From contig CANMXP010000023.1 of assembly GCA_947501845.1 (NCBI GenBank), forward strand, positions 1 through 64,000: a DNA stretch of 64,000 nucleotides. Reading direction: 5' to 3'. The notes beneath the pieces were generated by a model, which was given only the letters and a program-made list of their open reading frames with translations, made no database searches and was not told the DNA's origin. The DNA comes from an uncultured Flavobacteriaceae bacterium (GTDB lineage Bacteria > Bacteroidota > Bacteroidia > Flavobacteriales > Flavobacteriaceae). The translations under genes were made by a program, and so were the position numbers. Shown piece after piece: positions 15,908-57,567 of the stretch. Numbering within the stretch: the first letter of the stretch is position 1; each line of letters begins with the position of its first letter.

Positions 15908-15940
15908 AGTTAATTATATTAATCATTTATAATGTTAACT
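15908..15940. promoter_or_regulatory. 33-bp TTAA palindromic operator, site 1
   Basis: Divergent control region between the propionyl-CoA carboxylase/mutase operon (minus) and the first VOC operon (plus). It starts AGTTAA, ends TTAACT, and has inner ATTAAT and ATTTAT blocks at the same offsets as in the six other full sites of the window. An extra TTGTTAAC lies just to the right. No protein is known to bind it; the call rests on the repeated architecture. Confidence 0.8.
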
Positions 15941-16010
15941 ATTTTTGTTAACTTTACATCATAAAAGATTAAGACAATTAAAATTGAAATCTTTTATTAA
16001 CACAATATAT

Positions 16011-17000
16011 ATGAGCAGTTTACAACACAATCTCAACTTTTCTAATCTAGACCAAGCTATAAAGGGCTTTCAAGAAGTCATTTTTAGTGTTTCTAATTTA
16101 GATAAAGCCATAACATTTTATAAAGAACTTTTTGGTTGGAATCTAGTATATGAGGGTAACGGTACAGATGGGCTAAAAAAACTTTGGCATTTAAATACGT
16201 CAGTAAATATTAAAGAGGCGCTTTTGGTAAACCCAGAAGATAATAGAGGCTTTCTACGTTTAGTAAAGTTTAATAATGTTGGGCAAGAACAGATTCGTTC
16301 TGGCACTCAAATTTGGGATTCTGGAGGTGTTTTTGACGTAAATGTGCGTGTAAAAGATATTAATAGCATGTACAAAAAGCTTCAAAAGGAAGGCTGGAAC
16401 GGATACACAGACCCTAAACGTTTTACTTTTGGCAAGTTTGATGTTTGTGAAGTTGTTATTAAAGGACCCGACGGCATAACAGTTGCTATGATGCAACGTT
16501 TTAATCCTCCATTAGAGGGTTTTGAGTTTAAAAAGGCAAGTAGAATATTTAACTCCACCACCGTTTGTAGAGATTATAAAACAACACTTAATTTTTTTAA
16601 AAACATACTAGGTTTTAAACTTTATTATGAAACTGAAGGTACAGATAGAAGCCATGGACCAAACGTAATTGGTGTTCCTCCCAATATTAATGGAGATATT
16701 ACTGTGCCTGTTTGTATTATTCACCCCAACGGTGACAATGACGGTTCGTTAGAGTTACTTGAAACCGTTGAATTAAAAGGGAAAAATTGTTCTGCTTTAG
16801 CAAAGCCACCTAACCTTGGTATTTTAATGTATAGATTTCCCGTTAGAAATGCTGATGCTTACGCATCTGAACTCATTGAAAAAGGTGTAACATTAAATAG
16901 TGAAGTACAAACTTTGACCATTGAACCCTACGGGCAACTCAAAATATTCTCTGTGCTTTCTCCAGATGGTGTCTGGATTGAATTTATACAATTAATTTAA
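16011..17000 (+). CDS. two-domain VOC (glyoxalase/bleomycin-resistance fold) protein
   Basis: A cytoplasmic protein of about 329 residues with two vicinal-oxygen-chelate modules, each opening with the beta-alpha pattern (EVIFSVSNLDKAITFYKELFGW; STTVCRDYKTTLNFFKNILGF). I start it at ATG 16011 (MSSLQHNLNF); the longer frame from 15945 would begin inside the promoter. The positions that normally hold metal-binding His/Gln/Glu are mostly other residues (for example FDVNVRVKD and GPDGITVAMM), so it may bind a ligand rather than catalyse metal chemistry. A paralogue lies at 29206-30165, sharing the GG-x-x-D-x-N-x-RV and PPN-x-G-x-L-x-YR blocks. Confidence 0.8.
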   Translation: MSSLQHNLNFSNLDQAIKGFQEVIFSVSNLDKAITFYKELFGWNLVYEGNGTDGLKKLWHLNTSVNIKEALLVNPEDNRGFLRLVKFNNVGQEQIRSGTQIWDSGGVFDVNVRVKDINSMYKKLQKEGWNGYTDPKRFTFGKFDVCEVVIKGPDGITVAMMQRFNPPLEGFEFKKASRIFNSTTVCRDYKTTLNFFKNILGFKLYYETEGTDRSHGPNVIGVPPNINGDITVPVCIIHPNGDNDGSLELLETVELKGKNCSALAKPPNLGILMYRFPVRNADAYASELIEKGVTLNSEVQTLTIEPYGQLKIFSVLSPDGVWIEFIQLI

Positions 17001-17010
17001 AAGTTTTCTT

Positions 17011-18156
17011 ATGAAAGTATTCTATCCATTATTATTAAGTCTATTTCTAACACTTCTTTATTCATCTTGCAATAAAACAACACAAGAAAAAATAGAAATT
17101 GAACCTAATTCAGATAAAAAAACACTTGTTGCACCCGATGGTACTTATGAAAAGATTCCACTAGAAAAAGACACCATTGTTTTAAAAGTAATGCAAACCA
17201 GAGTAAAATCTCTTTCTAGTTTTCCTTCAATTGAAGAAGGTCTTGACGAGAATCTTAAATACATGGAACAAATGGCACATCAGGCGCAAAACGAAGGAGA
17301 CAAGCCAGATATTATATTATTTCATGAATTCCCTTTAACTGGTTATTCTTCAGGAACAAGACAAGAAAAATTGCCTTTTACTATTGAAATTCCAGGTCCT
17401 GAAACTGCTCGCATTGGCGAATTAGCAAAAGATTGTGATTGCTATATTATTTTTGGCAGTTATGTGCGTGATAAGGATTGGCCTGACCATATACTAAGCA
17501 TCAATACAGTTATGGGACGTGATGGTAAGGTTGCTAAAACATTCTGGAAATCTAGAAACATAAAGCGCATTTATAAAGACAGAGAGATTACCACTACTAC
17601 TATTGAAGCTGTTAGAGATGCCTACAGAGAAAAGTATGGTATTGAAGAAGAGTTTCCTGTGCTTAGAACAGAATTTGGAAATATTGCGGTAAGCACCGTA
17701 CAATTTGATCCTTTTATTTATGCAGCTTTTGCAATGCGAGGTACCGAAATTATGCTTAGAACTGCCACTTTATTTGCTGAAGAAGATGTGGTATTTACCG
17801 CTTGGAGTAATGATTTTTACTCCGCTATGGCAAATTTCACATTACCAGTTAGCACGGGTTATAATGCTGGAGAATCAGTAATTGTAGGGCCAAATGGAGA
17901 CATACTTGCTAAACATCCAAGCAAAGAAGATGATGGCATTGTTGAAGCCAAAATACCAATTGCTTCATTTAGAAAAGATAGAACCATACCTAATTACGCT
18001 TTAGAAATGACTAAACCTGTTTTTGAACAATACAAACAAGAAATTCCGATAAATCATTTGGATATGGATAAAACTTCTCTACCGAAAACGGGTGTAGAAA
18101 TGAAATCACTTATGGATAGTATAAGTAGATATAATCCACCTAAAAAAGCAAACTAA
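17011..18156 (+). CDS. nitrilase-superfamily lipoprotein lacking the catalytic cysteine
   Basis: A 381-residue carbon-nitrogen hydrolase-fold protein. A lipoprotein signal ends at Cys20 (LLYSSC), unusual for a normally cytoplasmic family. The fold signatures are present: active-site Glu106 in FHEFPLTGYSSG and a Lys near 180 in KTFWKSRNIK. At the place of the nucleophile (normally ...ICYD...) the sequence is VSTVQFDPF, with Val230 in the Cys position. It therefore probably cannot hydrolyse amides by the standard mechanism, and may bind a ligand or use other chemistry. It follows the VOC gene by 10 bp and belongs to the operon starting at 16011. Confidence 0.75.
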   Translation: MKVFYPLLLSLFLTLLYSSCNKTTQEKIEIEPNSDKKTLVAPDGTYEKIPLEKDTIVLKVMQTRVKSLSSFPSIEEGLDENLKYMEQMAHQAQNEGDKPDIILFHEFPLTGYSSGTRQEKLPFTIEIPGPETARIGELAKDCDCYIIFGSYVRDKDWPDHILSINTVMGRDGKVAKTFWKSRNIKRIYKDREITTTTIEAVRDAYREKYGIEEEFPVLRTEFGNIAVSTVQFDPFIYAAFAMRGTEIMLRTATLFAEEDVVFTAWSNDFYSAMANFTLPVSTGYNAGESVIVGPNGDILAKHPSKEDDGIVEAKIPIASFRKDRTIPNYALEMTKPVFEQYKQEIPINHLDMDKTSLPKTGVEMKSLMDSISRYNPPKKAN

Positions 18157-18173
18157 TCTAAATTTATTTAAAC

Positions 18174-18608
18174 ATGTCAGTATTATACAAAAGAATTACA
18201 CTTTGCGTTGCAGATTTAGAACGATCACTAAAAATTTACAGAGATATTTTAGGGTTTACTGTTAACTATATTCAACTCTCGGAAAAAGACTCATTCTCTT
18301 ACCCTGTTTTTAATATTCCAAATGAAGCTGATTTGAATTTTGCAACCCTGGATAGCCCTACTCAAGAACGTACTTTTGGTTTAACCGAGGTAAAAGGCGT
18401 TGAATTGCCAAAACATAATGGCATTCATATGAGTGCATCGGTTATAAAAGTAGATGATTTAGATGATGTGATTACGAAAATCAAAGCACTTGGTTTACAA
18501 ACTACTGCTATAAAAACAGACGAAAACGAATATGCAAAATTTATTGAGCAAGCCTTTGTTGATTATGATGGGCACTTAATTGTTCTTTATCAATTAATAG
18601 AAAAATAG
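18174..18608 (+). CDS. single-domain VOC protein
   Basis: A 144-residue cytoplasmic VOC-fold protein with the usual opening (KRITLCVADLERSLKIYRDILGF) and closing segment (QAFVDYDGHLIVLYQL). It has a close relative at 27266-27796, where the same protein carries a signal peptide; both share VFNIP, LP-K and the DGHL-x-V-x-YQL ending. The size would suit methylmalonyl-CoA epimerase, but the His/Glu pattern of that enzyme is not evident. Function unknown; co-transcribed with other VOC genes. Confidence 0.8.
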   Translation: MSVLYKRITLCVADLERSLKIYRDILGFTVNYIQLSEKDSFSYPVFNIPNEADLNFATLDSPTQERTFGLTEVKGVELPKHNGIHMSASVIKVDDLDDVITKIKALGLQTTAIKTDENEYAKFIEQAFVDYDGHLIVLYQLIEK

Positions 18609-18612
18609 TATT

Positions 18613-19215
18613 ATGAAAACAATCATTCTTGTTATGGCAACTTCAATAGCTCTTTTGGGGTCATATAAATGTATTGGGCAAACTGTAGACGCTCAAAACG
18701 TAAACCGCAATGATCAAATGGAAATTACTCAGCCCAAAGATTTTCCACTAATCTTTCGCAGAACAACACTTATTGTTAGAGATATCGAAAAGTCCCTAGA
18801 GCTCTATAAAGACATTATGGGTATGGAAGTTATTTACGACAATAAACTTACCAGGCCTCACAAGGAAGAAGATAGAGATCAAATAGTGCGTTTAATATTC
18901 TTAAAAGCTACCAGTAATTTTAATGGTGTTCTTGGTTTAATAGAATATGATTATGATAATACTAACAAAACACTTAAACCTATAAGAAAAGAAGGTTTTA
19001 CAGCTCAAAACACCATTTTATTATTCAATAGCAATGACCAAGATGCCAGACTAAAAGAGATAAAAAAGTTACCCACAATAGAAATGATAAAAGAACCTAG
19101 ATTGATAAAGTACCCTTCATACAATGGTGGTGATCCTATAAAGGCCAAAGTAGCTATTTTTTATGACCCAGATGGGTACATAGTTGAGTTTAACAAATTA
19201 CTAGATAATTTATAA
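18613..19215 (+). CDS. exported VOC protein
   Basis: A 200-residue VOC-fold protein with a predicted signal peptide (residues 1-22, ending CIGQ; Cys20 might instead act as a lipidation site). The fold begins at RRTTLIVRDIEKSLELYKDIMGMEV and ends with FYDPDGYIVEFNKLL. It starts 4 bp after the cytoplasmic VOC gene, so the pair seems to place similar binding folds on both sides of the inner membrane. No substrate can be named. Confidence 0.78.
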   Translation: MKTIILVMATSIALLGSYKCIGQTVDAQNVNRNDQMEITQPKDFPLIFRRTTLIVRDIEKSLELYKDIMGMEVIYDNKLTRPHKEEDRDQIVRLIFLKATSNFNGVLGLIEYDYDNTNKTLKPIRKEGFTAQNTILLFNSNDQDARLKEIKKLPTIEMIKEPRLIKYPSYNGGDPIKAKVAIFYDPDGYIVEFNKLLDNL

Positions 19216-19226
19216 TAATAAAATAT

Positions 19227-19640
19227 ATGATTTTCAAAACGCTAGACAAACTAGATTCCTATAAAGCCTATGCGTCTATACCTATCAGAATTATATTTTT
19301 TCTATATCTCATTCTAGCGATTAAAGCTGAAGTATATTTACCAGCTAATGCTGAAAAGTTTGGGGAAAGTTTAGCCGAAATGGGTATTCCTGCATCTACT
19401 TTAATGGGATGCATTGCTTCTTATGGTTTATTCATAGCTCACATATTAATTGTTATTGGTTGGAAAGTCAGGTTTGCAGCTGTAATTGAAGTTATTTACT
19501 TTTTGGTAGCTGTATTTGTTTACCATGTTTCAGCAGGTCATGGTATTAGCAAAACTATGCCAGCATCTGTTATGCTAGCAATGAGCATCTTTCTCTTAAT
19601 TCATGGAGCTGGAAAATCTTCGATAGATGAAGGTATTTAA
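19227..19640 (+). CDS. DoxX-like integral membrane protein
   Basis: A 137-residue protein with four hydrophobic segments (about 18-34, 60-78, 82-100 and 110-128), the size and topology of the DoxX family. Relatives are often linked to thiosulfate/quinone chemistry or to redox stress, but the function here is unknown. It sits in the middle of the VOC operon. A His-containing stretch VYHVSAGHGIS between helices 3 and 4 could be functionally relevant. Confidence 0.6.
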   Translation: MIFKTLDKLDSYKAYASIPIRIIFFLYLILAIKAEVYLPANAEKFGESLAEMGIPASTLMGCIASYGLFIAHILIVIGWKVRFAAVIEVIYFLVAVFVYHVSAGHGISKTMPASVMLAMSIFLLIHGAGKSSIDEGI

Positions 19641-19657
19641 TAGTAACAATCAATACA

Positions 19658-20869
19658 ATGAAATTCAAAACAACATATTTAAAACATTATACTCTTTTGG
19701 TTTTTAGCATCTCTTGCATTGCTATAATGAGTAGTCAATCTGAAAAAACAGATATCCTTATTGGAAATTCTGGAAATGATGGAGCGCGAGTTATGATTCA
19801 ATCTGTAGACGGCAACTATATTCTGGCAGGTTGGCACGATATGCAAGGTATACATTCACATAGTAAAGGTTTAATAGCTTCAGTATCAAACAACGGAAAT
19901 TTAAACTGGAAAAAAGTTTTAACAACCAATGGGCGAAACCAAGTATCTGCACTGGTACAACAACCCAATGGCAATTTATTAGCCATTATTGAAGAATTTT
20001 ATATTGAAGATGAACCTGGGCAAGTCATACTTACTCAACTGTCAAGATCAGGAGAAATGCTTCAAAAAACACCAATAGGAGGCACTGGTTCTGATGTAAT
20101 TGATAAAATTAAGGTAACCATAGATGGAGGCTATATTTTGGCAGGGGAAAGTTCCCTAAAATCCGACAATAAAGATGCCTGGGTTATAAAACTATCAAAC
20201 ACTTTTGAAAAAGAATGGGAATGGCGCAAAGGTACTGCAGGTAGAGACCGACTTACCGATGTAATTGTACTTCCAAATAATGATATAGTAGTATCTGGAA
20301 ATACAACCGCACCTGGAGCGGACAATTCGCATAAACATCAAATTCCATTGTTGGTGAAATTAAATGCTAAAGGTGAAGAAATTTGGTCTTGTAATTTTAA
20401 AATTAGTCATGCAGCTTCAATTCGCGGTATTGCAGCAACCAATTCTGGGGATATTATATTCTCAGGATTTATAAGACAAAATAAAACATTCTATGCCTGG
20501 ATAGGTAATGTCTCTAATAAAGGTAATTTATCTTGGAGTACATCTTTAAACCTTCCTAAAGCAAGTTATTTTCACGATGTGGTCTCTAAAAAAGACAACA
20601 TATTTACGGCAGTTGGGGTTTGTTTTGATACTGAAACACAAAACGACGTTCTAATTGTTAACTTCTCAGAAAATGGTTCAAACATTAAGGGATATAACTA
20701 TCCGAAAGTAGGACAACAAGAAGCTAGAGCTATACTTTACAATGAAGACGCATTAATATTAACTGGAACAAGTGGCCCTTCTCGCAAAGAAAAACAAATG
20801 TGGTTTTTAAAAATTCCAAAAATAGAGGAAAGCTGGTTAAACTATAAATTTTTAAAAGATGAAGAATAA
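19658..20869 (+). CDS. exported beta-propeller-like repeat protein, copy 1
   Basis: A 403-residue protein with an N-terminal hydrophobic export signal. The body is made of repeats of about 50 residues built on G-x-D/G-A/N...DGGYILAG...W-x-x-x-L...G-x-x-x-W (for example VDGNYILAGWHD, IDGGYILAGESS), the pattern of WD/PQQ-like propellers found in flavobacterial surface proteins. It is 1.2 kb long and followed by a homologous gene with which it overlaps by 11 bp. Probably periplasmic or surface-exposed; the partner is unknown. Confidence 0.65.
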   Translation: MKFKTTYLKHYTLLVFSISCIAIMSSQSEKTDILIGNSGNDGARVMIQSVDGNYILAGWHDMQGIHSHSKGLIASVSNNGNLNWKKVLTTNGRNQVSALVQQPNGNLLAIIEEFYIEDEPGQVILTQLSRSGEMLQKTPIGGTGSDVIDKIKVTIDGGYILAGESSLKSDNKDAWVIKLSNTFEKEWEWRKGTAGRDRLTDVIVLPNNDIVVSGNTTAPGADNSHKHQIPLLVKLNAKGEEIWSCNFKISHAASIRGIAATNSGDIIFSGFIRQNKTFYAWIGNVSNKGNLSWSTSLNLPKASYFHDVVSKKDNIFTAVGVCFDTETQNDVLIVNFSENGSNIKGYNYPKVGQQEARAILYNEDALILTGTSGPSRKEKQMWFLKIPKIEESWLNYKFLKDEE

Positions 20870-22064
20870 CTATATATCCTTATGTAAAATCAGTATCCTT
20901 TTTTGTTGGAGCATTATTAGCTACGCTCAAACTAACACCCTGAACTATATAGACAAAAGTTACGGCACACAGGGTAAAGATGGTCTTAGAAATGTATTAG
21001 TTTTAGAAGATGGTGGCTATTTACTATCTGGATGGATAAACCAAACCTCAAAAAATCATGTAGGCGAAGGATATCTTTTAAATATAGATTCACGAGGTAC
21101 TAAAAGATGGGAAAAAACCATAAGTACTATAGCAGGCAGAAACCGAATCACAAATATTTTCAAGACTGAAAACAATGGTTTTCTTATTGTAGTAGAGGAA
21201 TTTCCTGCTGAAAACGACCCTGGACAAGTGGCTTTAATTACAATTGACCAAAAGGGTACTATTTTGAACAAACGCAAATTTGGAAACGCAGGTATTGATA
21301 TTATTGAAATAATGCGCCCTAGCCCCGATGGAGGTTTTGTATTTGTTGGAGAAAGCGCTTTAAAACCTAACGGAGACCGACAGGCATGGGCGGGGAAACT
21401 ATCTAATAATCTGGATGTATTATGGCAGCACCATATAGGTAATTCTGGCAAAGACCGTTTTACCGATTGCACCGTACTTCCTGATGGGAGCTTTGTAGCA
21501 ATTGGATATATTGAAAAGAAACGAAAAAGTAGTGGTTTTTATGACAGCCCTTTAATGATGAAATTTGACACCTCTGGAAATACTATATGGTCTAAAGAAC
21601 CTAAATTTGAAAATGCAGGTGCTCTACGTGGTATTGCACTCGCCTCAAACCACCAATTAGCCTTAGTAGGATATACCCGAAATATTGACGGTAGCGAATT
21701 TGACGCTTGGGTAGGCGTGGCATCAACTGAAGGTGAAATTATCTGGAATAAAACATTAAAAGCACCTGGATTTAATAATCTTATGGCTGTTGAAAAAATG
21801 CCTGATGATACTTTTGTAGCTATTGGCTCTGGTAAAAATGGTAAAACCAGTTTTGATGCTTTACTTGTACAGTTTTCAAATACTGGAGACACAATCGCTT
21901 CGCAATACATTGAAAAAGAAGGCGCTCAATTTGGTCGTGTAGCGTATTCTATACCTCAAAATAGTATTGTTATTGGTGGTTTTAATTCTAATAATAAAAG
22001 TGTAGGAGACCAATTATGGATTTGCACTACAAAGACACCCCTTAATCAAAGTAGTAAAAAATAA
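20859..22064 (+). CDS. exported beta-propeller-like repeat protein, copy 2
   Basis: A 401-residue paralogue of the preceding gene: signal peptide ending SYAQ, then the same repeat pattern (EDGGYLLSGWIN, PDGGFVFVGESALKPN, PDGSFVAIGYIE). Both copies share the order of motifs, including EDDPGQ/ENDPGQ and GN-x-GKDR, so this is a tandem duplication. Last gene of the operon that starts at 16011. It ends only 2 bp from the convergent aminotransferase gene, and no terminator hairpin fits between them. Confidence 0.65.
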   Translation: MKNNYISLCKISILFCWSIISYAQTNTLNYIDKSYGTQGKDGLRNVLVLEDGGYLLSGWINQTSKNHVGEGYLLNIDSRGTKRWEKTISTIAGRNRITNIFKTENNGFLIVVEEFPAENDPGQVALITIDQKGTILNKRKFGNAGIDIIEIMRPSPDGGFVFVGESALKPNGDRQAWAGKLSNNLDVLWQHHIGNSGKDRFTDCTVLPDGSFVAIGYIEKKRKSSGFYDSPLMMKFDTSGNTIWSKEPKFENAGALRGIALASNHQLALVGYTRNIDGSEFDAWVGVASTEGEIIWNKTLKAPGFNNLMAVEKMPDDTFVAIGSGKNGKTSFDALLVQFSNTGDTIASQYIEKEGAQFGRVAYSIPQNSIVIGGFNSNNKSVGDQLWICTTKTPLNQSSKK

Positions 22065-30196: not shown

Positions 30197-30229
30197 AGTT
30201 AACATAATTAACCATTAATAATGTTAATT
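30197..30229. promoter_or_regulatory. 33-bp TTAA palindromic operator, site 2
   Basis: Divergent control region between the 29206-30165 VOC operon (minus) and the Tat-exported DUF1838 gene (plus). Opens with AGTTAAC, has ATTAAC and ATTAAT in the middle, closes with GTTAATT, matching the fixed offsets of the other sites. A possible -7 element TATATTTAT follows 7 bp to the right, towards the plus-strand gene. Confidence 0.8.
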
Positions 30230-41557: not shown

Positions 41558-41563
41558 CTTATT

Positions 41564-42088: not shown

Positions 42089-42101
42089 TTCTTATTTATT
42101 T

Positions 42102-43448: not shown

Positions 43449-43461
43449 AGTCTATTAAATT

Positions 43462-44783: not shown

Positions 44784-44816
44784 AGTTAACAATATTAATT
44801 ATTAATAAAGTTAATC
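44784..44816. promoter_or_regulatory. 33-bp TTAA palindromic operator, site 4
   Basis: Divergent control region between the hydratase/aldolase operon (minus) and the MFS carrier gene (plus). AGTTAAC at the left, ATTAAT twice in the centre, GTTAATC at the right, at the standard offsets. The centre and the following AAAGTTAA block are almost identical to site 5 at 47474. Confidence 0.8.
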
Positions 44817-46212: not shown

Positions 46213-46230
46213 TAGTTAATTGTATTCAAG

Positions 46231-46929: not shown

Positions 46930-47442
46930 CTAGTTATCAGAACGAGATGTTTGCCCGTTGGTTCTATTTTTAGGTAGATCTACCCAAAATTGAGGATCTA
47001 TTCCCTCTTTTCCACAGACTTTTCGCTCTTCAATCATAGTTATTCCATTAAAAGTATCCCCTTCAGACCATTTCCATACTCTAATACGGTGGTCGTCATT
47101 TCCTATCAAGTCTATTTGTTCAAACAAGATCATTCCTGGCCTATGTTTATATTCCCAAATTAATACAACACTTCTACCCGATTCCCATGCTTTTCCTGAA
47201 AGTCTAGGGTTTTCAAAAATAAGTTCTCCTTCTTCATTAAAAGGACAAACCCCAAAGTCTAAACATTCTTTGAAACCGTCGTCCCATGTGTATTCATTTA
47301 CCTGATGATATTTATTATCTGGCAATAAAACACACGTTAATCTACTCTTCCATTGGTCAACAAGTTTCCCATTTGCATCAATTCTTCTGTAAGTTCCTTC
47401 CCAAATACCTTCATGTTTAGGAAATAATTTCAATTCTTTCAT
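46930..47442 (-). CDS. DUF3598-like lipocalin-fold protein
   Basis: A 170-residue cytoplasmic protein. The opening (FPKHEGIWEGTYRRIDANG) and alternating strands (RLTCVLLPDNKYHQVNEY, ELIFENPRLSG, GMILFEQIDL) resemble the DUF3598 group of lipocalin-like proteins, which is common in cyanobacteria and related in fold to the bilin lyase CpcS. Putative ligand-binding barrel. Single gene with its own operator (site 5, 32 bp upstream), so it is a member of the regulon in its own right. Family call is from motif pattern only. Confidence 0.55.
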   Translation of the reverse strand: MKELKLFPKHEGIWEGTYRRIDANGKLVDQWKSRLTCVLLPDNKYHQVNEYTWDDGFKECLDFGVCPFNEEGELIFENPRLSGKAWESGRSVVLIWEYKHRPGMILFEQIDLIGNDDHRIRVWKWSEGDTFNGITMIEERKVCGKEGIDPQFWVDLPKNRTNGQTSRSDN

Positions 47443-47473: not shown

Positions 47474-47506
47474 AGTTAATAATATTAATTATTAATAAAG
47501 TTAACT
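47474..47506. promoter_or_regulatory. 33-bp TTAA palindromic operator, site 5
   Basis: Sits 32 bp upstream of the DUF3598-like gene (minus), in the 108-bp gap behind the E2 gene. AGTTAAT ... ATTAAT-TATTAAT ... GTTAACT with the same offsets as the other sites; nearly the same sequence as site 4. Confidence 0.8.
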
Positions 47507-49158: not shown

Positions 49159-49190
49159 AATTGTATCTTTTACGTTGTTAAAAACGGAGA

Positions 49191-51863
49191 TTAAACTTCC
49201 GCAGGATTTACTTTTTTAGTATCGATTTTATGCGCTTTTATAAAGTCTTTTACTTCTTTTAGAGTCACTGATCCATCCTGTTGCAATAACTGTAAAGCAC
49301 TAAGTGCGATGTATTTTGCACTTATTTCGAAGTAATTTCTAAGATCGTTTCTACCTTCACTAAGTCCATAGCCATCTGTACCAAGCACATGATAATTCCC
49401 AGGTATCCATTTAGAAATTCCCATTCCTAATTGTTTTACATAATCTGATGCTGATACAAATACTCCTGTTTCTTTCTCTAATAATGTCTCTAAATAATTT
49501 TTAGTTTTTTTATTGCTAGTATTTAACATTCTTTCTCGCTCAACTGCAAGAGCATCTCTTTGGAGTTCGGTATAACTAGTCACACTCCAGATATCTGTGG
49601 ATATTCCCATATCTTCTAAAAGTGCTTTAGCTTCTATAACTTGCATCATTATTGAGCCACTACCCATTAAATGCGCTTTTCTTCCTTTGGCAATTCTCTT
49701 GCTAGATTTTTGGTAACGATACATACCTTTAATAATACCTTCGGTAACACCTTCTGGCATCATAGGCATTGCATAATTTTCATTAGTAACTGTAATGTAG
49801 TAGAAAATCTTCTCTTGCTTTTCATACATGCGGTAGATACCATCTTTTACAATGACTGCCAACTCAAACGCAAATGTTGGATCGTAACTCTTCATATTAG
49901 GTACTATACTTGATAATACATGTGAATGCCCATCTTGATGTTGTACCCCTTCACCATTTAAAGTTGTTCGTCCTGATGTACCTCCAATTAAAAAGCCTTT
50001 AACCATCATATCTCCACAGGCCCAAATCATATCTCCTACTCTTTGAAAACCAAAAATTGAATAGAAAATATAAAACGGAATCATAGGTAAGCTGTGCAGT
50101 GAATATGCAGATCCAGCAGCCATAAAGGATGCCAAAGCTCCTGCTTCGCAGATCCCTTCTTGTAGTATTTGACCATCGGTACTTTCTCTGTAATAAGAAA
50201 CGCTTCCCGTATCTACAGGTTGATACAACTGTCCTTTAGGTTGATAAATACCAGCATGTCTAAAAAGACCGTCCATACCAAAAGTTCTTGCTTCATCTGG
50301 AATTATAGGTACTATGTAGTCTTTTATACTTTCATGACGTAATAGCTTAGATATGATACGTACCAGTACCATTGTTGTTGATACTTCTCTATCATCTGTT
50401 CCAGCATAAAACTCATCAAACAACGTATCATCTGGTGTAGCAATTGGCTTACTTTTATCTTTCCGCTCAGGTAAATAACCACCCAACGCCTCTCTTTGTT
50501 TTCTGAGGTATTGCATTTCTGGACTATTATCTATTGGCTTGAAAAACTTAGCTTTAGCCGCTTCTTCTTCATTTAAAGGAATACCAAATCGCTTTGCCGC
50601 TTCAATACGCTCATCTCTATTCAAATTCTTTTTCTGGTGTGTCGTATTTTTACCCTCACCAGAACTTCCCATACCATAGCCCTTAAGGGTTTTCATTAAA
50701 ATAACACTTGGCTTTCCATTAGGCTTAATGGCTTTTTTAAAAGAAGCGAATATTTTTTTATAATCATGCCCTCCTCTTCTAATAGTTCTTATTTCCTCAT
50801 CAGATAATGATTGCATTAACTTTTCTAGCTCGGGATTACCTTCTACCCAGTGTTCTCTTACCTTATCTCCTGGAAGCACAGAATACAATTGATAATCTCC
50901 GTCTAAAGCACGTTCCATTCTATCAACTAAAATACCATCTTTATCTCGTGCCAAAAGCGCATCCCATTCACTTCCCCAAATAACTTTGGTAACATTCCAT
51001 CCTGCACCTATAAAACTACGTTCTAACTCTTGGATGATCTTTCCGTTTCCTCTTACAGGCCCATCTAAACGTTGTAAATTACAGTTAACAACTAAAACAA
51101 AATTATCCAGCTGCTCTCTTGCGGCTATATTTAAAGTTCCTAAGGTTTCTGGTTCATCCATTTCTCCATCGCCTACAAAGGCCCATACCATACCGCCCTT
51201 TTTAGGTTTTAAACCTCTATTTTCTAAATACTTCTGAAATCTAGCTTGATAAATGGCACTTACACCAATTAATCCCATAGAAGCTGATGGTATTTCCCAA
51301 AAATCAGGCATTCTTCTTGGATGTGGATATGATGGCAACCCGCCTTCTTTTTGAAGTTCTCTTCTAAAGTTTTTTAAATGTTGCTCTGTTAATCTACCTT
51401 CTAAAAAAGCTCTTGCATAAATCCCAGGAGCTGCATGGGGCTGAAAAGACACTAAATCACCGCCATAATCTTCAGATCTTTTTCTAAAAATATGGTTCTG
51501 CCCAACTTCATACATACTTGCTGCCGATGCATATGTAGCTATATGCCCCCCTAATCCTTCTCCACCATCATAGGCTTGCAGAACCATAGCCATTGCATTC
51601 CACCTATTAATATTTTCAATCTTTTTCTCAATAACGGTATCTCCTGGGTAGGCAGGTTGATCTTTAGCATTAATCGTATTGATATATGGTGAATTTAAAG
51701 CTTCACCTGCTAACTTTACTCCTTTTCTTTGGGCAAAAGAACGCAACTCATGTATCAAACTTACAGCTTTTTCATCTCCTTGGTCATCAATAAATTCTTC
51801 CAAAGAGGTTATCCATTCTTCTAATTCTTGCTGCGAATCTTTAGTTATTTCACTCATAATCAT
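49191..51863 (-). CDS. aceE: pyruvate dehydrogenase E1, homodimeric type
   Basis: Thiamine-diphosphate-dependent decarboxylase of the pyruvate dehydrogenase complex. 890 residues, the normal AceE length. The ThDP-binding block is VGDGEMDEPE followed by NCNLQRLDGPV; early motifs NRWNAMAMVLQAYDGGEGLGG-type and GGHIATYASAASMYEVG are intact. Many flavobacteria use the heterodimeric E1 alpha/beta, so this AceE-type pair may be an additional complex. It starts 74 bp from operator site 6, so it is likely induced with the island. Two more Met codons near the start (51857) are possible starts. Confidence 0.95.
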   Translation of the reverse strand: MIMSEITKDSQQELEEWITSLEEFIDDQGDEKAVSLIHELRSFAQRKGVKLAGEALNSPYINTINAKDQPAYPGDTVIEKKIENINRWNAMAMVLQAYDGGEGLGGHIATYASAASMYEVGQNHIFRKRSEDYGGDLVSFQPHAAPGIYARAFLEGRLTEQHLKNFRRELQKEGGLPSYPHPRRMPDFWEIPSASMGLIGVSAIYQARFQKYLENRGLKPKKGGMVWAFVGDGEMDEPETLGTLNIAAREQLDNFVLVVNCNLQRLDGPVRGNGKIIQELERSFIGAGWNVTKVIWGSEWDALLARDKDGILVDRMERALDGDYQLYSVLPGDKVREHWVEGNPELEKLMQSLSDEEIRTIRRGGHDYKKIFASFKKAIKPNGKPSVILMKTLKGYGMGSSGEGKNTTHQKKNLNRDERIEAAKRFGIPLNEEEAAKAKFFKPIDNSPEMQYLRKQREALGGYLPERKDKSKPIATPDDTLFDEFYAGTDDREVSTTMVLVRIISKLLRHESIKDYIVPIIPDEARTFGMDGLFRHAGIYQPKGQLYQPVDTGSVSYYRESTDGQILQEGICEAGALASFMAAGSAYSLHSLPMIPFYIFYSIFGFQRVGDMIWACGDMMVKGFLIGGTSGRTTLNGEGVQHQDGHSHVLSSIVPNMKSYDPTFAFELAVIVKDGIYRMYEKQEKIFYYITVTNENYAMPMMPEGVTEGIIKGMYRYQKSSKRIAKGRKAHLMGSGSIMMQVIEAKALLEDMGISTDIWSVTSYTELQRDALAVERERMLNTSNKKTKNYLETLLEKETGVFVSASDYVKQLGMGISKWIPGNYHVLGTDGYGLSEGRNDLRNYFEISAKYIALSALQLLQQDGSVTLKEVKDFIKAHKIDTKKVNPAEV

Positions 51864-51936: not shown

Positions 51937-51969
51937 AGTTAACATAATTAATAATTAATATAATTAACT
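51937..51969. promoter_or_regulatory. 33-bp TTAA palindromic operator, site 6
   Basis: Upstream of aceE-aceF (minus). AGTTAAC, then ATTAAT-AATTAAT in the centre, then ATTAACT at the right, in the fixed spacing. It places the pyruvate dehydrogenase pair in the same putative regulon as the propionyl-CoA operon and the TonB receptor. Confidence 0.8.
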
Positions 51970-52413
51970 ATATATAATTTTATGTTTTTCTTTATACAAA
52001 AGAGGAGCTATTCAGTTTTTTTTTATAAAAACTATAAAACGCTAACCATAATGAGTTATAAAAAAAGGCCACTTAAGCAAGGGGATATAGCCTGTAATTA
52101 AGACATTTAAGAATTGATTAAATCTATCTTAAATCAGATTTTTTTGAGGTTAGAGATACTAAAGAACAAAAACAGAGAAATTAAATTTTGTTGTTTGTTT
52201 AAGAGGAAAACCTCTTGAAGTATAAACAAACATTTTATCTAATTAAATTTATATTATAAATAGTTCTATTTGAAAACCAATAGTTTTTTGGAATTTGTCA
52301 TTATTCCACAAGATTAAGTCTTTCAAATATGTTACTATAATATTATTGTGAAACGTTTCAACAAACTTGAGTAATCATTAAAACTCATCCAATAAATTTA
52401 AACGTTTTTTAAC
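51970..52413. other. 444-bp AT-rich intergenic stretch, nothing recognised
   Basis: No frame reads as convincing protein. The only structure seen is a small hairpin AAGAGG-AAAA-CCTCTT around 52201-52216, without a T-tract on either side. The stretch separates the aceE promoter from the decayed hydrolase and may include lost 3' sequence of that gene. Confidence 0.5.
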
Positions 52414-52994
52414 TTAGTTCTGTGACTTTAATATTTTACTTAATAGTGTATTAAATTCAGTAGCCTTTTCAATCATTATAAAGTGACCAGTGTCTTTTAT
52501 AATATGTATTTTGAAACCCAAAGGTTGATAATATGCTTCGTCTGTTGGTTGCATATGAAACTACATCAACAGCTACCATAGCTCCCATACTTATGACCTA
52601 TTATATTTAAGCTTTAAATATCTAATGTATTAACAACATCTAAAACATCCGTTGTAAACGATGCAACACTCCAATCCGTTCGGTTAACGCCCGACTTACC
52701 ATGTCCACCTAAGTCAATGGTTACCACTTTATAATTATCTTTAAAATAAGTTACCTATTCTTTCCAATACGTCTGGTCGCAAGACCAACCATGTATAAAA
52801 ACAATAGCGGCGTCCCCAGTGCCTTCTACAGTGTAATGTATATCAATGTCTCCAGCTGAAGACTTAACTACCATTTCTTGAGGAGCTTCAAGCATTTCAT
52901 TATCTACAGATTCTATAGTCTTTACTTTTTCTTTACAACTCATAAAAGTGATTAAAAATGAGAATAAAATAATAATGGAAAGTTGTGATTTCAT
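52414..52994 (-). pseudogene. decayed alpha/beta-hydrolase lipoprotein
   Basis: The gene begins intact at 52994 with a lipoprotein signal (Cys20, LITFMSC) and the start of an alpha/beta hydrolase (IVFIHGWSCDQTYWKE), then hits a stop at 52755-52757. In the same frame it continues as VTYFKDNYKVVTIDLGGHGKSG up to another stop. One base out of frame comes the nucleophile elbow remnant GHS-x-MGAMVAVDVV, then a deletion, and the tail TGHFIMIEKATEFNTLL with the catalytic-His region, ending at 52414. Two stops, one frameshift and a central deletion make it non-functional. Decay of an esterase inside an otherwise intact island is notable. Confidence 0.85.
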
Positions 52995-53245
52995 AACGCT
53001 CTATTTTTATTGTTTTACTTATTATATTATTTGCCAGGGCTCAAATCTCCCAAAATTGAGTTACATTATAATATATATGAATTAAGCAATCAAATTAGCA
53101 ACTTATATATTTCCTTCGCTTTTAAACAATTCAATTAACACAAAAACGTGTTATTTTTACTACAATTATAAATTTCACTTATTATACAATTGTTAATTTA
53201 TTTGAAACACTCCTTCACTTAACTATTTATAAACAAATGCAATAA

Positions 53246-53286
53246 ATTTAGTTAATTTAATTAATAATTAATTAAATTAACTAAAT
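53246..53286. promoter_or_regulatory. TTAA palindromic operator, site 7 (41-bp perfect palindrome)
   Basis: The best copy of the element: the core 33 bp (53250-53282) are perfectly symmetric about a central A, and symmetry extends four more bases on each side. It lies 60 bp upstream of the exported oxidase operon. A promoter-like TATATTTAG starts at 53293, 10 bp to the right of the core, compatible with the Bacteroidota -7 box TAnnTTTG apart from its last bases. Confidence 0.85.
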
Positions 53287-53345: not shown

Positions 53346-54293
53346 ATGAAAAAAATAAGGTTGATGATATTCTTAATGCTAGGCGTATTGCTCTTTTCTA
53401 AAAGTACTATAGCCCAAGATAACATTACAACCTTTAAAGACTGTAATGAGTGTCCAGAAATGGTAATAATACCTAAAGGGAAAGTAAATATAGGGTCATA
53501 CAAAGAAGAAATTGGAAGAAAAAAAGGAGAACGAGACAGAGTTTTAGCAACTATAGATAAAGCATTTGCTATGGCGAAAACCGAAGTTACTTTAGCACAA
53601 TATAGAGTCTTTATGAAAGAAACCAAATACAAATCTAATATCCCTTACTATAAAGGAGAACCTTTGGTTGGTTGTAACTATTTTGATGGTAAAAGCTATG
53701 GCTATGTAGCGGTTCACAATTGGCAAAATCCAGGGTATCCACAACGCGAATCAGATCCTGTTGTATGTGTAAGTTATACTGATGCTAAAGCTTATGCAGA
53801 CTGGTTAAGCTCAAAAACAGGGCGCAATTATAGAGTACCTTCTGCTGTAGAATTCGAATATGCGTCTAGAGCAGGTAGTTCTAGTCCGTGGTACTGGGGA
53901 ACAGACCCTTCGAAAGCATGCGAATATGCCAATATTGGAGATAAGACTTTTGCCCATAAATTCCCAACTAGAACATCTTTCCCCTGTACAGATGGTTATG
54001 TTTTTACCACAAAAGTTGGCAGATTTCAACCCAATAACTTCGGCCTATATGATATGATTGGAAATGCCTGGGAATGGACAGCAGATTGTTTTAAAAAAGA
54101 TTTAACCAATATACCTGTTGACGGTTCAACATATATAGGAACGGAGGAAGAATGTAAAGCCAGAACACCCAAAGGAGGTAGTTGGATTAGTGGTATAAGC
54201 TGGTCTAGAGCTGCAGTTAGATCCAGAGATGGCACTGACTACAAAAGCTTTATGCTAGGTTTTCGAGTAGCTGCAGAAATAACTAATAATTAG
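53346..54293 (+). CDS. exported SUMF1/FGE-like protein
   Basis: A 315-residue protein with a signal peptide ending STIAQ, then one formylglycine-generating-enzyme-like (SUMF1) domain: MVIIPKGKVNIGS, KTEVTLAQYRVFMKET, PVVCVSYTDAKAYADWLSSKTGRNYRVPSAVEFEYASRAG (in parts), GNAWEWTADCF, GGSWISG and GFRVAAE. The pair of active-site cysteines near the C-terminus of true FGE is missing (GFRV in place of GFRC), so sulfatase activation is unlikely; other family members bind ligands or act in EgtB-like chemistry. No sulfatase gene is near. First gene of the four-gene exported set behind site 7. Confidence 0.82.
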   Translation: MKKIRLMIFLMLGVLLFSKSTIAQDNITTFKDCNECPEMVIIPKGKVNIGSYKEEIGRKKGERDRVLATIDKAFAMAKTEVTLAQYRVFMKETKYKSNIPYYKGEPLVGCNYFDGKSYGYVAVHNWQNPGYPQRESDPVVCVSYTDAKAYADWLSSKTGRNYRVPSAVEFEYASRAGSSSPWYWGTDPSKACEYANIGDKTFAHKFPTRTSFPCTDGYVFTTKVGRFQPNNFGLYDMIGNAWEWTADCFKKDLTNIPVDGSTYIGTEEECKARTPKGGSWISGISWSRAAVRSRDGTDYKSFMLGFRVAAEITNN

Positions 54294-54314
54294 TAACTTA
54301 TTTAAAAGTTTATC

Positions 54315-55817
54315 ATGAAAACAACAAGACGTGATTTTGTAAAAAATATAGTAGGAACAACAGCGGCTATTGGTGTTTTAGGTATCACTGGTTGTGAAAC
54401 TTCTAAAAAAGACACTAAAGAAACTGCACCACTAGCTCCAAAACAACCTAAAGTACCTGCTAAAGAAAAGTATGACGTTATAGTTGTAGGCGCTGGACTT
54501 TCTGGGCTTCAAGCTGCTATTCTATTAGAAGAGGCAGGATTAGATGTTTTAGTTTTAGAAGGCAGGAAACGTTTAGGAGGAAGAGTATATACTTTAGAAA
54601 ATGTTCCTGGTAAACCTGAAGCAGCTGGAGAATGGATTGGCGGTAATTATGCCCGCATGATTAATATGGTAAACAAATTAGGGCTTGAAATGTTTACTCC
54701 AAAAATGAACAATGATAATCGCCCATGGATGTATCACATTAAAGGGGAATTCATTACCGCTAAAGATTGGGCGTCTCACCCACTAAACCCACAAACTGGA
54801 GAGTTTAGAGATTTATTACCCAGTAAGTACTTAAGCACTATTTCAAATCATAATAACCCGCTTAAGGGTCAACCATTAGATGCGTGGTTAAAACCAGAAT
54901 TTCAAAAATACGATATACCTCATGACGAATACCTAAGGTCTCAAGGTGTTACAGAAGAAACAATAAGATTAATGAATGTCACCATCCATTCTGGTGGTAT
55001 GCATAGAACTTCTGCTTTAAACGAATTAAGAAGATACCATGTAATGGATTTTAATTCTAAGTTAAAATTTCCAGATGGTACTGGTTGGAAAATGATAAGA
55101 GGTGGTAATTCTCTTTTACCTAAAGCTATGGCTGAAAGTTTAAACAACGAAGTCCTTTTAAACAAAACTGTTGTTGCTTTTAGAGAAAAAAATAACGTTA
55201 CAGAAATAAGTTGTGCAGATGGTACTGGATATAAAGCTGACCATGTAATTTGTAGTATTCCTATATCTGTACTAAAAAATGTTACGTTTGAACCTCTTAT
55301 AAAAGGCATTACTGCAGAAGCTATAGATCATGTTGGATATGGTTTATCTATTCAGGTTCATTTTCAAGTTATGGAACCTTATTGGGAAAAAGACGGTTTG
55401 GCTCCTAATATGTGGACAGATGGGGAACTGGAAAGAATAGCCGTTAGAACTAAAAGAAATAAAATAGATCCAGATGCATTGGTTGTTTTTATAAACGGTC
55501 CAGAATCATTGAAATTTAGATTAATGACAGATGAGGAAGTATTTAGATATTGCCAAATAAAATTGGCGCAATTGCGGCCTTCAATGAAAGAAGCTTTAGA
55601 ACCAATTCTCATTCAATCTTGTGAAAGAGATATTCATGGAGCTGGAGATTGGGTGTATTGGCAACCTGGGCAAGTCACCAAATTTGGTAATCATATGCGT
55701 TCTAGACATGGTAATATTCATTTTTGTGGAGAACATACTGCCATTATGGAACGAGGAATGGAAGGTGCTTTCGAATCTGGTGAAAGAGCCGCTCTTGAAA
55801 TTATTTTGGAATCTTAA
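54315..55817 (+). CDS. exported flavin amine oxidase-type lipoprotein, copy 2
   Basis: A 500-residue FAD enzyme of the amine oxidase superfamily with a twin-arginine start (TTRRDFVKN) and lipobox Cys27 (LGITGC). The FAD motif is VIVVGAGLSGLQAAILLEEAG followed by VLEGRKRLGGRVY; C-terminal HFCGEHTAIMERGMEGAFESG-type block is present (seen as CGEHTAIMERGMEGAFES). Paralogue of 42102-43448 but about 50 residues longer. Exported folded with FAD to the periplasm, where the cytochrome c encoded two genes on could take its electrons. Substrate unknown; amines, or C-N/C-C bonds of pyrrolic rings, are possible. Confidence 0.87.
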   Translation: MKTTRRDFVKNIVGTTAAIGVLGITGCETSKKDTKETAPLAPKQPKVPAKEKYDVIVVGAGLSGLQAAILLEEAGLDVLVLEGRKRLGGRVYTLENVPGKPEAAGEWIGGNYARMINMVNKLGLEMFTPKMNNDNRPWMYHIKGEFITAKDWASHPLNPQTGEFRDLLPSKYLSTISNHNNPLKGQPLDAWLKPEFQKYDIPHDEYLRSQGVTEETIRLMNVTIHSGGMHRTSALNELRRYHVMDFNSKLKFPDGTGWKMIRGGNSLLPKAMAESLNNEVLLNKTVVAFREKNNVTEISCADGTGYKADHVICSIPISVLKNVTFEPLIKGITAEAIDHVGYGLSIQVHFQVMEPYWEKDGLAPNMWTDGELERIAVRTKRNKIDPDALVVFINGPESLKFRLMTDEEVFRYCQIKLAQLRPSMKEALEPILIQSCERDIHGAGDWVYWQPGQVTKFGNHMRSRHGNIHFCGEHTAIMERGMEGAFESGERAALEIILES

Positions 55818-55827
55818 AATGTAGATT

Positions 55828-56829
55828 ATGTCACGATTAAAAAAAACGACCTTAAGTTTTCTTTTCATTTTCAGCATTTCAACTCTTACAACTTTACTTT
55901 ATGCTCAAAACAACGACCCAAATGCAAGAGATTTGGTCTTACTAACAAAATGGTTTGAAGGAGCATTTGATAATGATTCACAAATTTGGTTTGAAAATAG
56001 AAGAAGTTGGGCAGGAAAAGAAGAAGAAAAACATGAACGTATTCATGCTGTACATAAACGTATTAACGCAAAAGATATTGGTGATTATGTGTTTTATATA
56101 GAAGAATTTACTGGAGAAGACTCTACAAATATTACCCGCCAAAGAATTGTATCCTTTAAAAGCAACGCACCAGAAGAAACTATTGAAATGGAATTGTATT
56201 TTATACAAGATTCAAAAAAGTACTTAGGAGCATACCAAACACCAGAAATATTTAAAGGTTTTAAAAAAGAAGATCTATTTGGTCTGGATGGATGCAATGT
56301 TTTCTTTAAGCGGAAAGGAGAACAATACCATGGTAGCATGAAATATAAAACGTGTCAATTTGGGAAAGATGACCTTAAAAGATACTCAGTTCATGATATG
56401 ATTATTTCAGAAAATCAATATTGGCGTGTAGATCGAACTTTTCTAGTAAAAGATGATTCCTTTCACAAAGGACATCCTAATAACATTCCTCACAAAATGA
56501 GAAAAGCTACTTATTACAGCTGTAACATAGCTTTTCATGAAAAAGCATATTATTTGCCATCAGAAAAAGATAAAAAATTCAATAATATTTTAATACATAA
56601 TCAAGGGGGATTAAAATGGTTTAAGAACCCAATTGATGGTAAAACCTATGGTATTCAACTACGTGAAAAACAATATCCTTTTTATAAAGAAGGTTCAGAT
56701 TTTTTTATGATGAGATTTAAAGAAAAAGGACAACTAGCATCAAAAACTATTATACTTTCTGAACCAAACCCTAAAAAAACAGGTTTTCAAATGGGGTGGG
56801 CATCATGTGTTTGCGAAAAAACCGAATAA
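55828..56829 (+). CDS. exported CpcT/CpeT-family (chromophore lyase-like) protein
   Basis: A 333-residue protein with a signal peptide ending LYAQ. The CpcT/CpeT core is clear: LTKWFEGAFDNDSQIWFENRR, VFYIEEFTGEDSTNITRQRIVSF, then GYxxPEIFKGF-like and LDGCNVFFKRKGEQYHGSMKYKTCQF (shown by parts: DGCNVFFKRKGEQYHG). It resembles 31193-32266 (INITRQ and DGCP/DGCN blocks) and 62750-63451. In the cyanobacterial family these residues surround a bilin pocket. Here it is periplasmic and co-expressed with the flavin oxidase, so it may bind or present the substrate. Confidence 0.8.
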   Translation: MSRLKKTTLSFLFIFSISTLTTLLYAQNNDPNARDLVLLTKWFEGAFDNDSQIWFENRRSWAGKEEEKHERIHAVHKRINAKDIGDYVFYIEEFTGEDSTNITRQRIVSFKSNAPEETIEMELYFIQDSKKYLGAYQTPEIFKGFKKEDLFGLDGCNVFFKRKGEQYHGSMKYKTCQFGKDDLKRYSVHDMIISENQYWRVDRTFLVKDDSFHKGHPNNIPHKMRKATYYSCNIAFHEKAYYLPSEKDKKFNNILIHNQGGLKWFKNPIDGKTYGIQLREKQYPFYKEGSDFFMMRFKEKGQLASKTIILSEPNPKKTGFQMGWASCVCEKTE

Positions 56830-56844
56830 ATTAATAATATAAAA

Positions 56845-57309
56845 ATGAAACGATTAACCAAAAATAAGCATGTACCACTTACAAAAATACTTTTATTATT
56901 AATTGTGTTTATATATTCATGTGTTAACAAAACTGAAAAAAAAGAAACACCTATATATAAGGAAGCTGTTCTTAATGAGACGGATAAAAAAGAACCTATA
57001 AAAAAATTATCAGCAGGTGCAAAACTATTTATTCAGTGTGCTGCCTGTCATAATCTTAAAAAAGGAGAACCTAATAAAGTGGGACCAAATTTAAACGGTA
57101 TTTTTGGAAGAAAAGCTGGCTCTTATAAAGGGTTTATTTATTCAGATGTTCTAAAAGCTTCAAATATAGTTTGGGATGAAAACCATATACGCAATTGGCT
57201 GGAAAAACCATCAGACTATCTACCTGGTACCACAATGGCTTTTATAGGTATAACTAATAAAGAACAACAAGACACTTTAATTAAATATTTAAAGAAAGAA
57301 ACCAAGTAA
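56845..57309 (+). CDS. lipoprotein class I cytochrome c
   Basis: A 154-residue electron carrier tethered to the membrane through Cys26 (FIYSC). One heme is attached at CAACH (65-69); the distal ligand is likely Met131 in TTMAFIGI; NLNGIFGRKAGSYKGFIYSD and NWLEKPSDYLPGT are the mitochondrial-type cytochrome c signatures. Last gene of the exported oxidase operon, 15 bp after the CpcT/CpeT gene. It probably accepts electrons from the periplasmic flavin enzyme and passes them to an oxidase of the respiratory chain. Confidence 0.93.
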   Translation: MKRLTKNKHVPLTKILLLLIVFIYSCVNKTEKKETPIYKEAVLNETDKKEPIKKLSAGAKLFIQCAACHNLKKGEPNKVGPNLNGIFGRKAGSYKGFIYSDVLKASNIVWDENHIRNWLEKPSDYLPGTTMAFIGITNKEQQDTLIKYLKKETK

Positions 57310-57334
57310 GTAATTTTTTTATATCCCACTTTAG

Positions 57335-57363
57335 AAGAGAATATTTATTAAAAACCTTCTCTT
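57335..57363. terminator. possible hairpin after the cytochrome c gene
   Basis: Inverted repeat AAGAGAA / TTCTCTT, 7 bp, with a 15-nt AT-rich loop, 26 bp after the stop. The loop is long and only TTTT follows a few bases on, so it is a weak terminator candidate. The rest of this 376-bp gap contains operator site 8 and a 118-bp AT-rich leader. Confidence 0.35.
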
Positions 57364-57534
57364 ATGTTTTAAATAATCTTTTTTCAAAAAAACATAAACA
57401 CCTATATAGCAGACCTTCAACTAAGAGATAATTAAAAATATTATCATTTTGTAAGATTTCACTTTGCTTATTATCACTATAACCTATTATTTTTATTTAA
57501 AATTTATATTAATGTTGTTTTTCTGAAAAAAAAT

Positions 57535-57567
57535 AGTTAATTTAGTTAACAATTAACATTATTAATC
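57535..57567. promoter_or_regulatory. 33-bp TTAA palindromic operator, site 8
   Basis: Lies 118 bp upstream of the TonB receptor. AGTTAAT, GTTAAC, ATTAAC and ATTAATC blocks at the fixed offsets. A promoter-like TATATTTAG starts at 57570, 2 bp past the element. Confidence 0.8.

Follow-up and report, generated by a model that had tools for sequence, protein, structure and literature searches.

A 33-bp tandem element marks a local, probably MarR-controlled regulon in marine Flavobacteriaceae

Introduction

Which regulator reads a 33-bp palindromic element that recurs in front of genes in a 64-kb stretch of flavobacterial DNA, and what do these genes do? The stretch (positions 1 to 64,000 of contig CANMXP010000023.1, hereafter the window) belongs to an uncultured Flavobacteriaceae bacterium (GCA_947501845.1; 5.37 Mb, 75 contigs). 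Coordinates on the whole contig carry the prefix C23, the window being C23:1-64000. A first-pass annotation, made from the sequence letters, had proposed seven full copies, a half-site, a shared regulon and a regulator of the MarR type. Our best explanation, with a probability of roughly 0.78, is that the element serves as operator for a local regulon under a MarR-family protein encoded at C23:85528-86037, which would bind as two dimers per site and repress a catabolic gene cluster. The finding is real, and stronger than first proposed: marine flavobacteria share a local regulon of the MarR type, whose operator is rigid and built for two dimers.

The element and its distribution in the genome

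The seven full sites, taken here as operators, are the following (no strand is assigned to a site; the strand of each gene or operon is in brackets):

15908-15940, two-unit operator between the propionyl-CoA carboxylase/methylmalonyl-CoA mutase (PCC/MCM) operon (-) and the VOC1/nitrilase1 operon (+), with -7-like boxes on either side
30197-30229, operator between the VOC6/DUF1838a operon (-) and DUF1838b (+); a site at the VOC6 start is also present in the relatives G026, G215 and G334
44784-44816, operator between the LeuC1 operon (-) and the MFS3/NQO operon (+); a pre-MFS3 site is also present in the same three relatives
47474-47506, operator 5' of the DUF3598 gene (-)
51937-51969, operator 5' of the AceE-type pyruvate dehydrogenase (PDH) operon (-), with a TATATTTG -7 box 8 bp past its edge; orthologous in the three relatives
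53250-53282, operator 5' of the FGE/amine oxidase/CpcT/cytochrome c operon (+), within a 41-bp palindrome
57535-57567, operator 5' of the TonB-dependent receptor operon (+); orthologous in the three relatives

The observation of a seven-site element was confirmed. Each copy is 33 bp long, starts with AGTTAA and has its cores at offsets 3, 12, 19 and 28; the cores are of the TTAA type as described, save the third core of site 15908, which is TTTA. Allowing up to three mismatches, a pattern search of the window gave 14 strand matches, which fall at 7 places; judged by 100 shuffles, the number expected by chance is 0.02. According to the table of open reading frames (ORFs), all seven sites are intergenic and 5' of a gene. 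Three of them (15908, 30197 and 44784) separate intact divergent genes, as had been noted, and 53250 in addition faces an apparently broken divergent gene. By eye, the latter is a remnant of an alpha/beta-hydrolase-like lipoprotein gene (window 52400-53000, - strand); in G026 and G215 a hydrolase-like gene adjoins the PDH site. The 41-bp palindrome, earlier placed at the centre of "site 7", encloses the 53250 site and is of the odd type (by eye); the number seven fits it only if the half-site is counted.

A scan of the whole genome, proposed as a check in the first-pass annotation, placed the strict 31-bp pattern at nine positions, all on C23 (the seven window sites plus 67731 and 81072) and all within one 65-kb stretch, C23:15908-81104; the reversed control gave 0. 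A weight matrix added a weaker site at C23:77268, 5 bp 5' of the start codon of a CpcT-like gene. The same annotation had named equal density in unrelated promoters or inside genes as the outcome that would speak against a regulon. This was not the case, because strict sites occurred only in the C23 cluster and 20 simulated 87-kb Markov sequences gave 0 matches at a score of at least 15. The 33-bp element precedes most operons of a single 66-kb gene cluster. The regulon claim is supported in that the strict sites of this genome are confined to this cluster, with the correction that the regulon extends beyond the window, to about C23:86 kb.

Unit architecture and spacing

The basic unit is the 15-bp RTTAAY-N3-RTTAAY. 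We recorded distances of 1-40 bp between all exact units in four cluster regions, leaving the 33-bp pattern unused. Exact units paired at 16 bp alone (8, 4, 6 and 5 pairs in the four regions), with 0 control pairs at 16 bp in each. With one mismatch allowed, 16 bp was still foremost (10, 8, 10 and 7 pairs), beside single or double pairs at 9, 13, 25, 33 and 36 bp. The geometry guessed earlier, 15-bp units about 16 bp apart, is thus exact in all four regions. It also has a solved precedent in the MarR protein Rv2887 (PMC5526998), whose two dimers on 30 bp likewise take 15 bp each and sit on nearly opposite faces. The Rv2887 sites differ in being GC-rich and recognised by indirect readout, whereas here a TTAA code is repeated at about ten promoters.

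In our proposed mechanism, one MarR dimer would bind each 15-bp unit and a full site would hold two. At 16 bp, about one and a half turns, the dimers would lie on roughly opposite faces of the helix. Among 50 distinct 33-mers the four TTAA cores were near-invariant, and the positions between them mostly free or A/T. We also considered an extension of the sites to three units and rejected it; a third unit was found in just 4 of 105 flanks at up to two mismatches, a weak hint.

Conservation in relatives

The strict pattern was found in 3 of 299 genomes of the family, clustered in one locus each time. In G026, G215 and G334 the strict matches cover 63-66 kb of one contig in each; G334 (locus L061) is the culturable Maribacter vaceletii DSM 25230. 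Wherever matches could be placed (these three and the present genome, G000), all sites lie in one catabolic cluster. Two genomes of the same genus, G019 and G248, had no site at up to two mismatches (reversed control, 1 and 3 strand matches), which suggests transfer of the cluster. The three relatives carry largely the same genes, with sites at the orthologous TonB receptor, ADH3/hydrolase, PDH, MFS3 and VOC6 places. The arrangement of the PCC genes differs: a site precedes an ADH1-BCCP-PCC run in G026 and G215, and none stands directly before BCCP in G334. At the ADH3 promoter the site is 92% identical across 23 loci, compared with 41% and 56% in its flanks.

These data bear on the simplest rival, namely that the element is a dispersed repeat, a nucleoid-protein site or an AT-rich structural palindrome without regulatory meaning. 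The element is indeed AT-rich, palindromic and multicopy. It is confined, though, to one locus in each of the four genomes, and none of 64 sites scoring at least 25 falls inside an ORF of at least 150 aa. The spacing is fixed while positions between the cores vary, and sites are kept at orthologous promoters while their flanks diverge. We rejected this rival on account of the confinement, the absence from ORFs and the fixed spacing, and regard it as extremely improbable.

The MarR gene and its presumed operon

The candidate regulator gene lies at the end of the cluster, outside the window:

C23:85528-86037, MarR-family gene

Its protein scores above the cut-off for PF12802 and PF01047 (Pfam MarR_2, E 2.6e-10), and the predicted structure has the helix and wing order of a winged-helix domain. 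Foldseek matched the model to HpaR, SlyA, ZitR and MepR at E of about 2-3e-5, with a TM-score of about 0.44 and a high root-mean-square deviation. Of 397 family genomes, 5 have a close ortholog, counting G000 itself; identity in the others is 81-86%. Five other matches reach 28-37%. In a sample of the class (n=395) only G000 and one distant homolog passed E 1e-20. Around a distant MarR in another family (G690, E 1.6e-24) no site was found in 3.4 kb.

Scanning the named genomes of GTDB gave 26 marR loci, from Maribacter, Croceitalea, Aquimarina, Muricauda and other Flavobacteriaceae (G334, G152 and G026 included). A site scoring at least 20 lies in the flank of 23 of them; two of the misses are on contigs that end less than 2 kb upstream, and the third is locus L063, in genome G152. 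The pattern at up to one mismatch occurs in 25 of the 26 genomes, with 0 in the control for all 26; several of these genomes are fragmented, and site placement is known among the matches listed. L063/G152 is the only marR genome without sites. There marR adjoins MCM/PCC genes (G152 C9:153152, L040/L063), and no HydB, CpeT or DUF1838 match was found in the genome, which makes it a natural control, with marR and without the cluster.

In 25 of the 26 loci (23 exact, 2 with one mismatch) a single 15-bp unit stands about 1.1 kb 5' of marR, before nitrilase2; the copy in the present genome is at C23:84406. Gene order points to nitrilase2 and marR forming one operon, so that the regulator's presumed operon carries its own unit. 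A regulator gene preceded by its own copy was what the first-pass annotation had advised looking for, and its guess of a MarR-type protein gains support from this gene at the cluster end.

Could a different regulator, encoded elsewhere, read the sites, with marR as a passenger? The genome with marR and without sites would fit, and so would the Crp-like gene that adjoins marR in G000. Sites do accompany marR in the 25 other genomes, though, and a unit stands before the marR operon as well. We disfavoured the Crp-like neighbour, as it is not beside marR in G026, G215 or G334. No regulator family was found among nine more ORFs (one incomplete) of the relatives' clusters, where the scan for regulators stopped. 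We consider a different regulator improbable, and the MarR protein the likely binder.

Promoter geometry and mode of control

In Flavobacterium psychrophilum the -7 box TAnnTTTG lies at -12 to -5 (PMC9723704). Of 105 gene-facing flanks, 37 have TAnnTT[TGA][AG] starting 7-11 bp past the edge of the site; none of the nine other 5-bp bins holds as many (1-16). These positions would put the full sites at about -54 to -22, with the proximal unit over the -33 region. For the single nitrilase2-marR unit, the looser TAnnTT[TGA] starts 6-10 bp past the edge in 21 of 25 cases (other bins 0-4). Two elements lie still closer to their genes: the CpcT4 site ends 5-22 bp before the ATG (4 of the 4 genomes looked at) and the HydB unit 11-23 bp before it (22 of 22 loci). 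No promoter fits between these elements and the start codon, which suits a block better than an activator.

We therefore favour repression. At most promoters MarR would occupy roughly -54 to -22, which includes the -33 region, and the cluster would stay silent until a compound of the pathway releases the protein. The nitrilase2-marR promoter, having the promoter-proximal unit alone, would be under weaker autoregulation.

The same sites and the same MarR could also serve activation, the two-dimer site replacing a missing -33 box and recruiting RNA polymerase when MarR is ligand-bound. Activation keeps some standing because a TTG 17-23 bp 5' of the -7 box was found in 0 of the 37 promoters with such a box, and the distance from site to -7 box is 7-10 bp in those 37. 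On the other hand, the proximal unit, the sole one of the nitrilase2-marR promoter, would centre near -28, within the core promoter, and the CpcT4 and HydB sites leave no space for a downstream promoter. Most studied MarR proteins are repressors. Activation is in our view unlikely, at about one chance in a few.

Several observations weigh against the explanation of a repressing MarR with two-dimer operators. The -7 motif is absent at +7 to +11 in 68 of the 105 flanks; 22 of the 37 flanks that have it are orthologs of the ADH3 promoter, the other 15 coming from about ten further promoters. The lack of a TTG would, as said, also suit an activator. The invariance of the cores is partly circular, because matching the cores was what admitted sites to the profile, and a single unit alone is unspecific: the genome has 7 occurrences of the looser GTTAAYNNNRTTAAC (4 on C23), against 5 in the reversed control. 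At score 20, nothing in G026, G215 or G334 corresponds to the HMGL/ALDH site of G000. The MarR model is mediocre (pLDDT 68, with the low TM-score to MarRs in the PDB given above), and L063/G152 shows that marR can exist without sites. Among the matches listed, the restriction to the cluster has one exception, a one-mismatch site off the cluster contig in G782 (L104:10213-10245, C3:310213-310245). It stands ~90 bp 5' of a VOC-like gene, whose product is 26% identical to the VOC protein of C23:83279 and which is a possible satellite member of the regulon.

Regulated genes and possible substrate

Functions in the cluster were assigned from Pfam and NCBIfam scans, while the PCC/MCM, E2 and TonB proteins were named by eye. 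The genes in the window are:

7234-15852 (-), class V aminotransferase (Pfam); methylmalonyl-CoA mutase, propionyl-CoA carboxylase and biotinyl proteins (by eye)
15945-22064 (+), VOC1, nitrilase1, VOC2, VOC3 and three ORFs (one scanned without Pfam match); VOC1 probably starts downstream of its listed TTG codon
22067-30165 (-), aminotransferase, two MFS proteins (one by eye), ORF without Pfam match, VOC4-6, peroxiredoxin and DUF1838a
30266-31186 (+), DUF1838b
within 31193-44730 (-), CpcT1, SnoaL-like protein, ORF without Pfam match, methyltransferase, hydantoinase B (HydB) and FAD oxidoreductase
within 31193-44730 (-), hydantoinase A (HydA), SDR, HapK-like protein, HpcH aldolase, LeuD1, amine oxidase-like protein and LeuC1
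44962-46875 (+), MFS3 and flavodoxin-fold oxidoreductase
46930-47442 (-), DUF3598 protein
47551-51863 (-), PDH E2 (by eye) and homodimeric AceE-type E1
53346-57309 (+), FGE-type protein, amine oxidase-like flavoprotein, CpcT2 and cytochrome c
57686-63451 (+), TonB-dependent receptor and MFS4 (both by eye), DUF1838c and CpcT3

To the left of the cluster there are, by eye, a transposase-like ORF and a LytS/LytTR-like pair (window 117-761 and 4054-5840).

Overall the cluster encodes four CpeT/CpcT proteins, three DUF1838 proteins, several VOC proteins, hydantoinases A and B and two PuuE/deacetylase-type hydrolases. It further encodes an isochorismatase, two nitrilase-type proteins, a RidA-like protein, a CoA transferase, an AceE-type PDH, two homoaconitase/isopropylmalate-type hydratase pairs, and HpcH and HMGL lyases. 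The homodimeric PDH E1 (49191-51863) scores above the NCBIfam cut-off and, within this catabolic cluster, has its own conserved operator.

PF06206 (CpeT/CpcT) is above the gathering score at 31193, 55828, 62750 and C23:77306. CpeT is present in 22 of the 299 family genomes. All but three of these have a single copy; G000 has 5, of which one lies outside the cluster, and G026 and G215 have 3 each. No match was obtained with a single CpcT-like protein against the sequences of the PDB; a profile of the four cluster members was needed, and it matched the phycocyanobilin lyase 4o4o at E 9.2e-12. DUF1838, in the window at 28288-29193, 30266-31186 and 60437-61345, is found in 3 of the 299 genomes, exactly those with strict sites, and through this co-occurrence the regulon places DUF1838 in a pathway. 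The DUF1838 model (pLDDT 85) is beta-rich, with no convincing match in the PDB (TM-score about 0.2). In the literature searched, available as title and abstract opening, the word DUF1838 occurs in one publication.

Taken by family, the regulated genes suggest the breakdown of linear tetrapyrroles (bilins), above all through the CpcT/CpeT-like proteins, the lactam/imide hydrolases, the two hydratases of the homoaconitase type and the propionyl-CoA route. Hydrolysed hematinic acid resembles methylated homoaconitate, a likeness that would explain the two homoaconitase-family hydratases. Hematinic acid and alkyl maleimides are described as degradation products of heme and chlorophyll (PMC7318184). 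Among the cluster ORFs scanned, which were part of the total, we found no SusD protein and no carbohydrate-active enzymes of the kind that accompany a TonB receptor in a polysaccharide utilization locus.

A regulon dedicated to complete breakdown of linear tetrapyrroles (phycobilins, or bilins from chlorophyll or heme) could work as follows. Bilins would be captured by the TonB receptor and by the CpcT and DUF1838 barrel proteins, and oxidised to maleimides. ATP-dependent and PuuE-like hydrolases would open the maleimides, followed by de-amidation. The two homoaconitase-type hydratases would act on two types of acid, dialkylmaleate and methyl-carboxyethyl-maleate, and lyases would cleave the hydrated acids to oxo acids and propionate, which would enter the PDH and the propionyl-CoA route. 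MarR would sense an imide of the pathway, or a bilin, via the double-dimer operators; its ligand most likely derives from linear tetrapyrroles via maleimide-type intermediates. For the scheme as a whole we put the odds slightly below even. The step from these families to a bilin substrate is one of resemblance only, and this too counts against our explanation.

Alternatively, the cluster may degrade a lactam or another N-heterocycle, such as a compound of the hydantoin, creatinine or allantoin type. Among solved structures, HydA scores best against an N-methylhydantoinase, and one deacetylase-type protein against the PuuE allantoinase. For the isochorismatase the top-scoring solved structures are N-carbamoylsarcosine amidohydrolase and a hydrolase of the isochorismatase family. 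This is a live rival because these relatives are mostly hydantoin, carbamoyl-sarcosine and allantoin enzymes. It would leave unexplained why the cluster has four CpcT/CpeT proteins, a propionyl-CoA route, and two lyases alongside two hydratases of the homoaconitase type, and we hold it for somewhat less probable than the breakdown of tetrapyrroles.

The palindrome at 35904

The half-site of the first-pass annotation belongs to a different kind of element:

35904-35928, no strand assigned, 25-bp palindrome with a single 15-bp unit (35909-35923), between the FAD oxidoreductase and hydantoinase B genes

It does hold one unit, as claimed, but forms a conserved element of its own, placed between two genes of one presumed operon. 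The palindrome contains GTTAACTAAGTTAAC, the sole exact GTTAACNNNGTTAAC in the genome; on the coding strand it holds GTTAACTTAGTTAAC. The exact core, with TA on either side, is kept at all 22 HydB loci (from the 26 genomes, 4 having no HydB match), the outer arms varying in some. At several of them the stop codon of the upstream gene apparently lies in the left arm (by eye). As RNA, the palindrome folds at -10.7 kcal/mol (z -2.5), with 3 of 200 shuffles as good. Lying inside a presumed operon, it would be transcribed. It may act on the DNA as an internal operator or roadblock, form a hairpin in the RNA, or do both.

Relation to known systems and significance

The cluster MarR resembles HpaR in its presumed control of a local catabolic cluster and matches it at E 1.1e-8 (NCBIfam) and 7e-6 (PDB, sequence profile); its 34.9 bits, compared with 121.2, are nevertheless far under the HpaR cut-off. 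This regulon also has more operators than those of HpaR-like catabolic regulators. The match to BilQ, the MarR-family regulator of bilirubin utilization (NF045593, E 1.1e-7), makes a tetrapyrrole link possible, although at 31.6 bits against a cut-off of 125 the protein is not a member. Unlike the phycocyanobilin lyase CpcT (4o4o), most of the cluster CpcT proteins are longer and have apparent signal peptides (by eye), with several flavobacterial paralogs. Among the ATP-dependent lactam and hydantoin hydrolases (caprolactamase, N-methylhydantoinase, oxoprolinase), HydA and HydB match the caprolactamase models and HydA also matches solved enzymes; they differ from CapA/CapB in reaching 554 (HydA) and 201 (HydB) bits against an NCBIfam equivalog cut-off of 1000. 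A literature search by title and abstract opening, with partial coverage and few subscription journals, returned no account of the cluster or of flavobacterial bilin catabolism. The regulator type is known, while the tandem architecture and the cluster are undescribed in the literature searched.

In some two dozen flavobacterial genomes, a clean regulator/operator code (a 15-bp unit, a strict 16-bp tandem and presumed single-unit autoregulation) delimits a catabolic cluster. The regulon gives DUF1838, a family of unknown function, a pathway context. Should the substrate prove to be a bilin, the fate of marine photosynthetic pigments would become accessible to direct genetic tests through the operator and its ligand.

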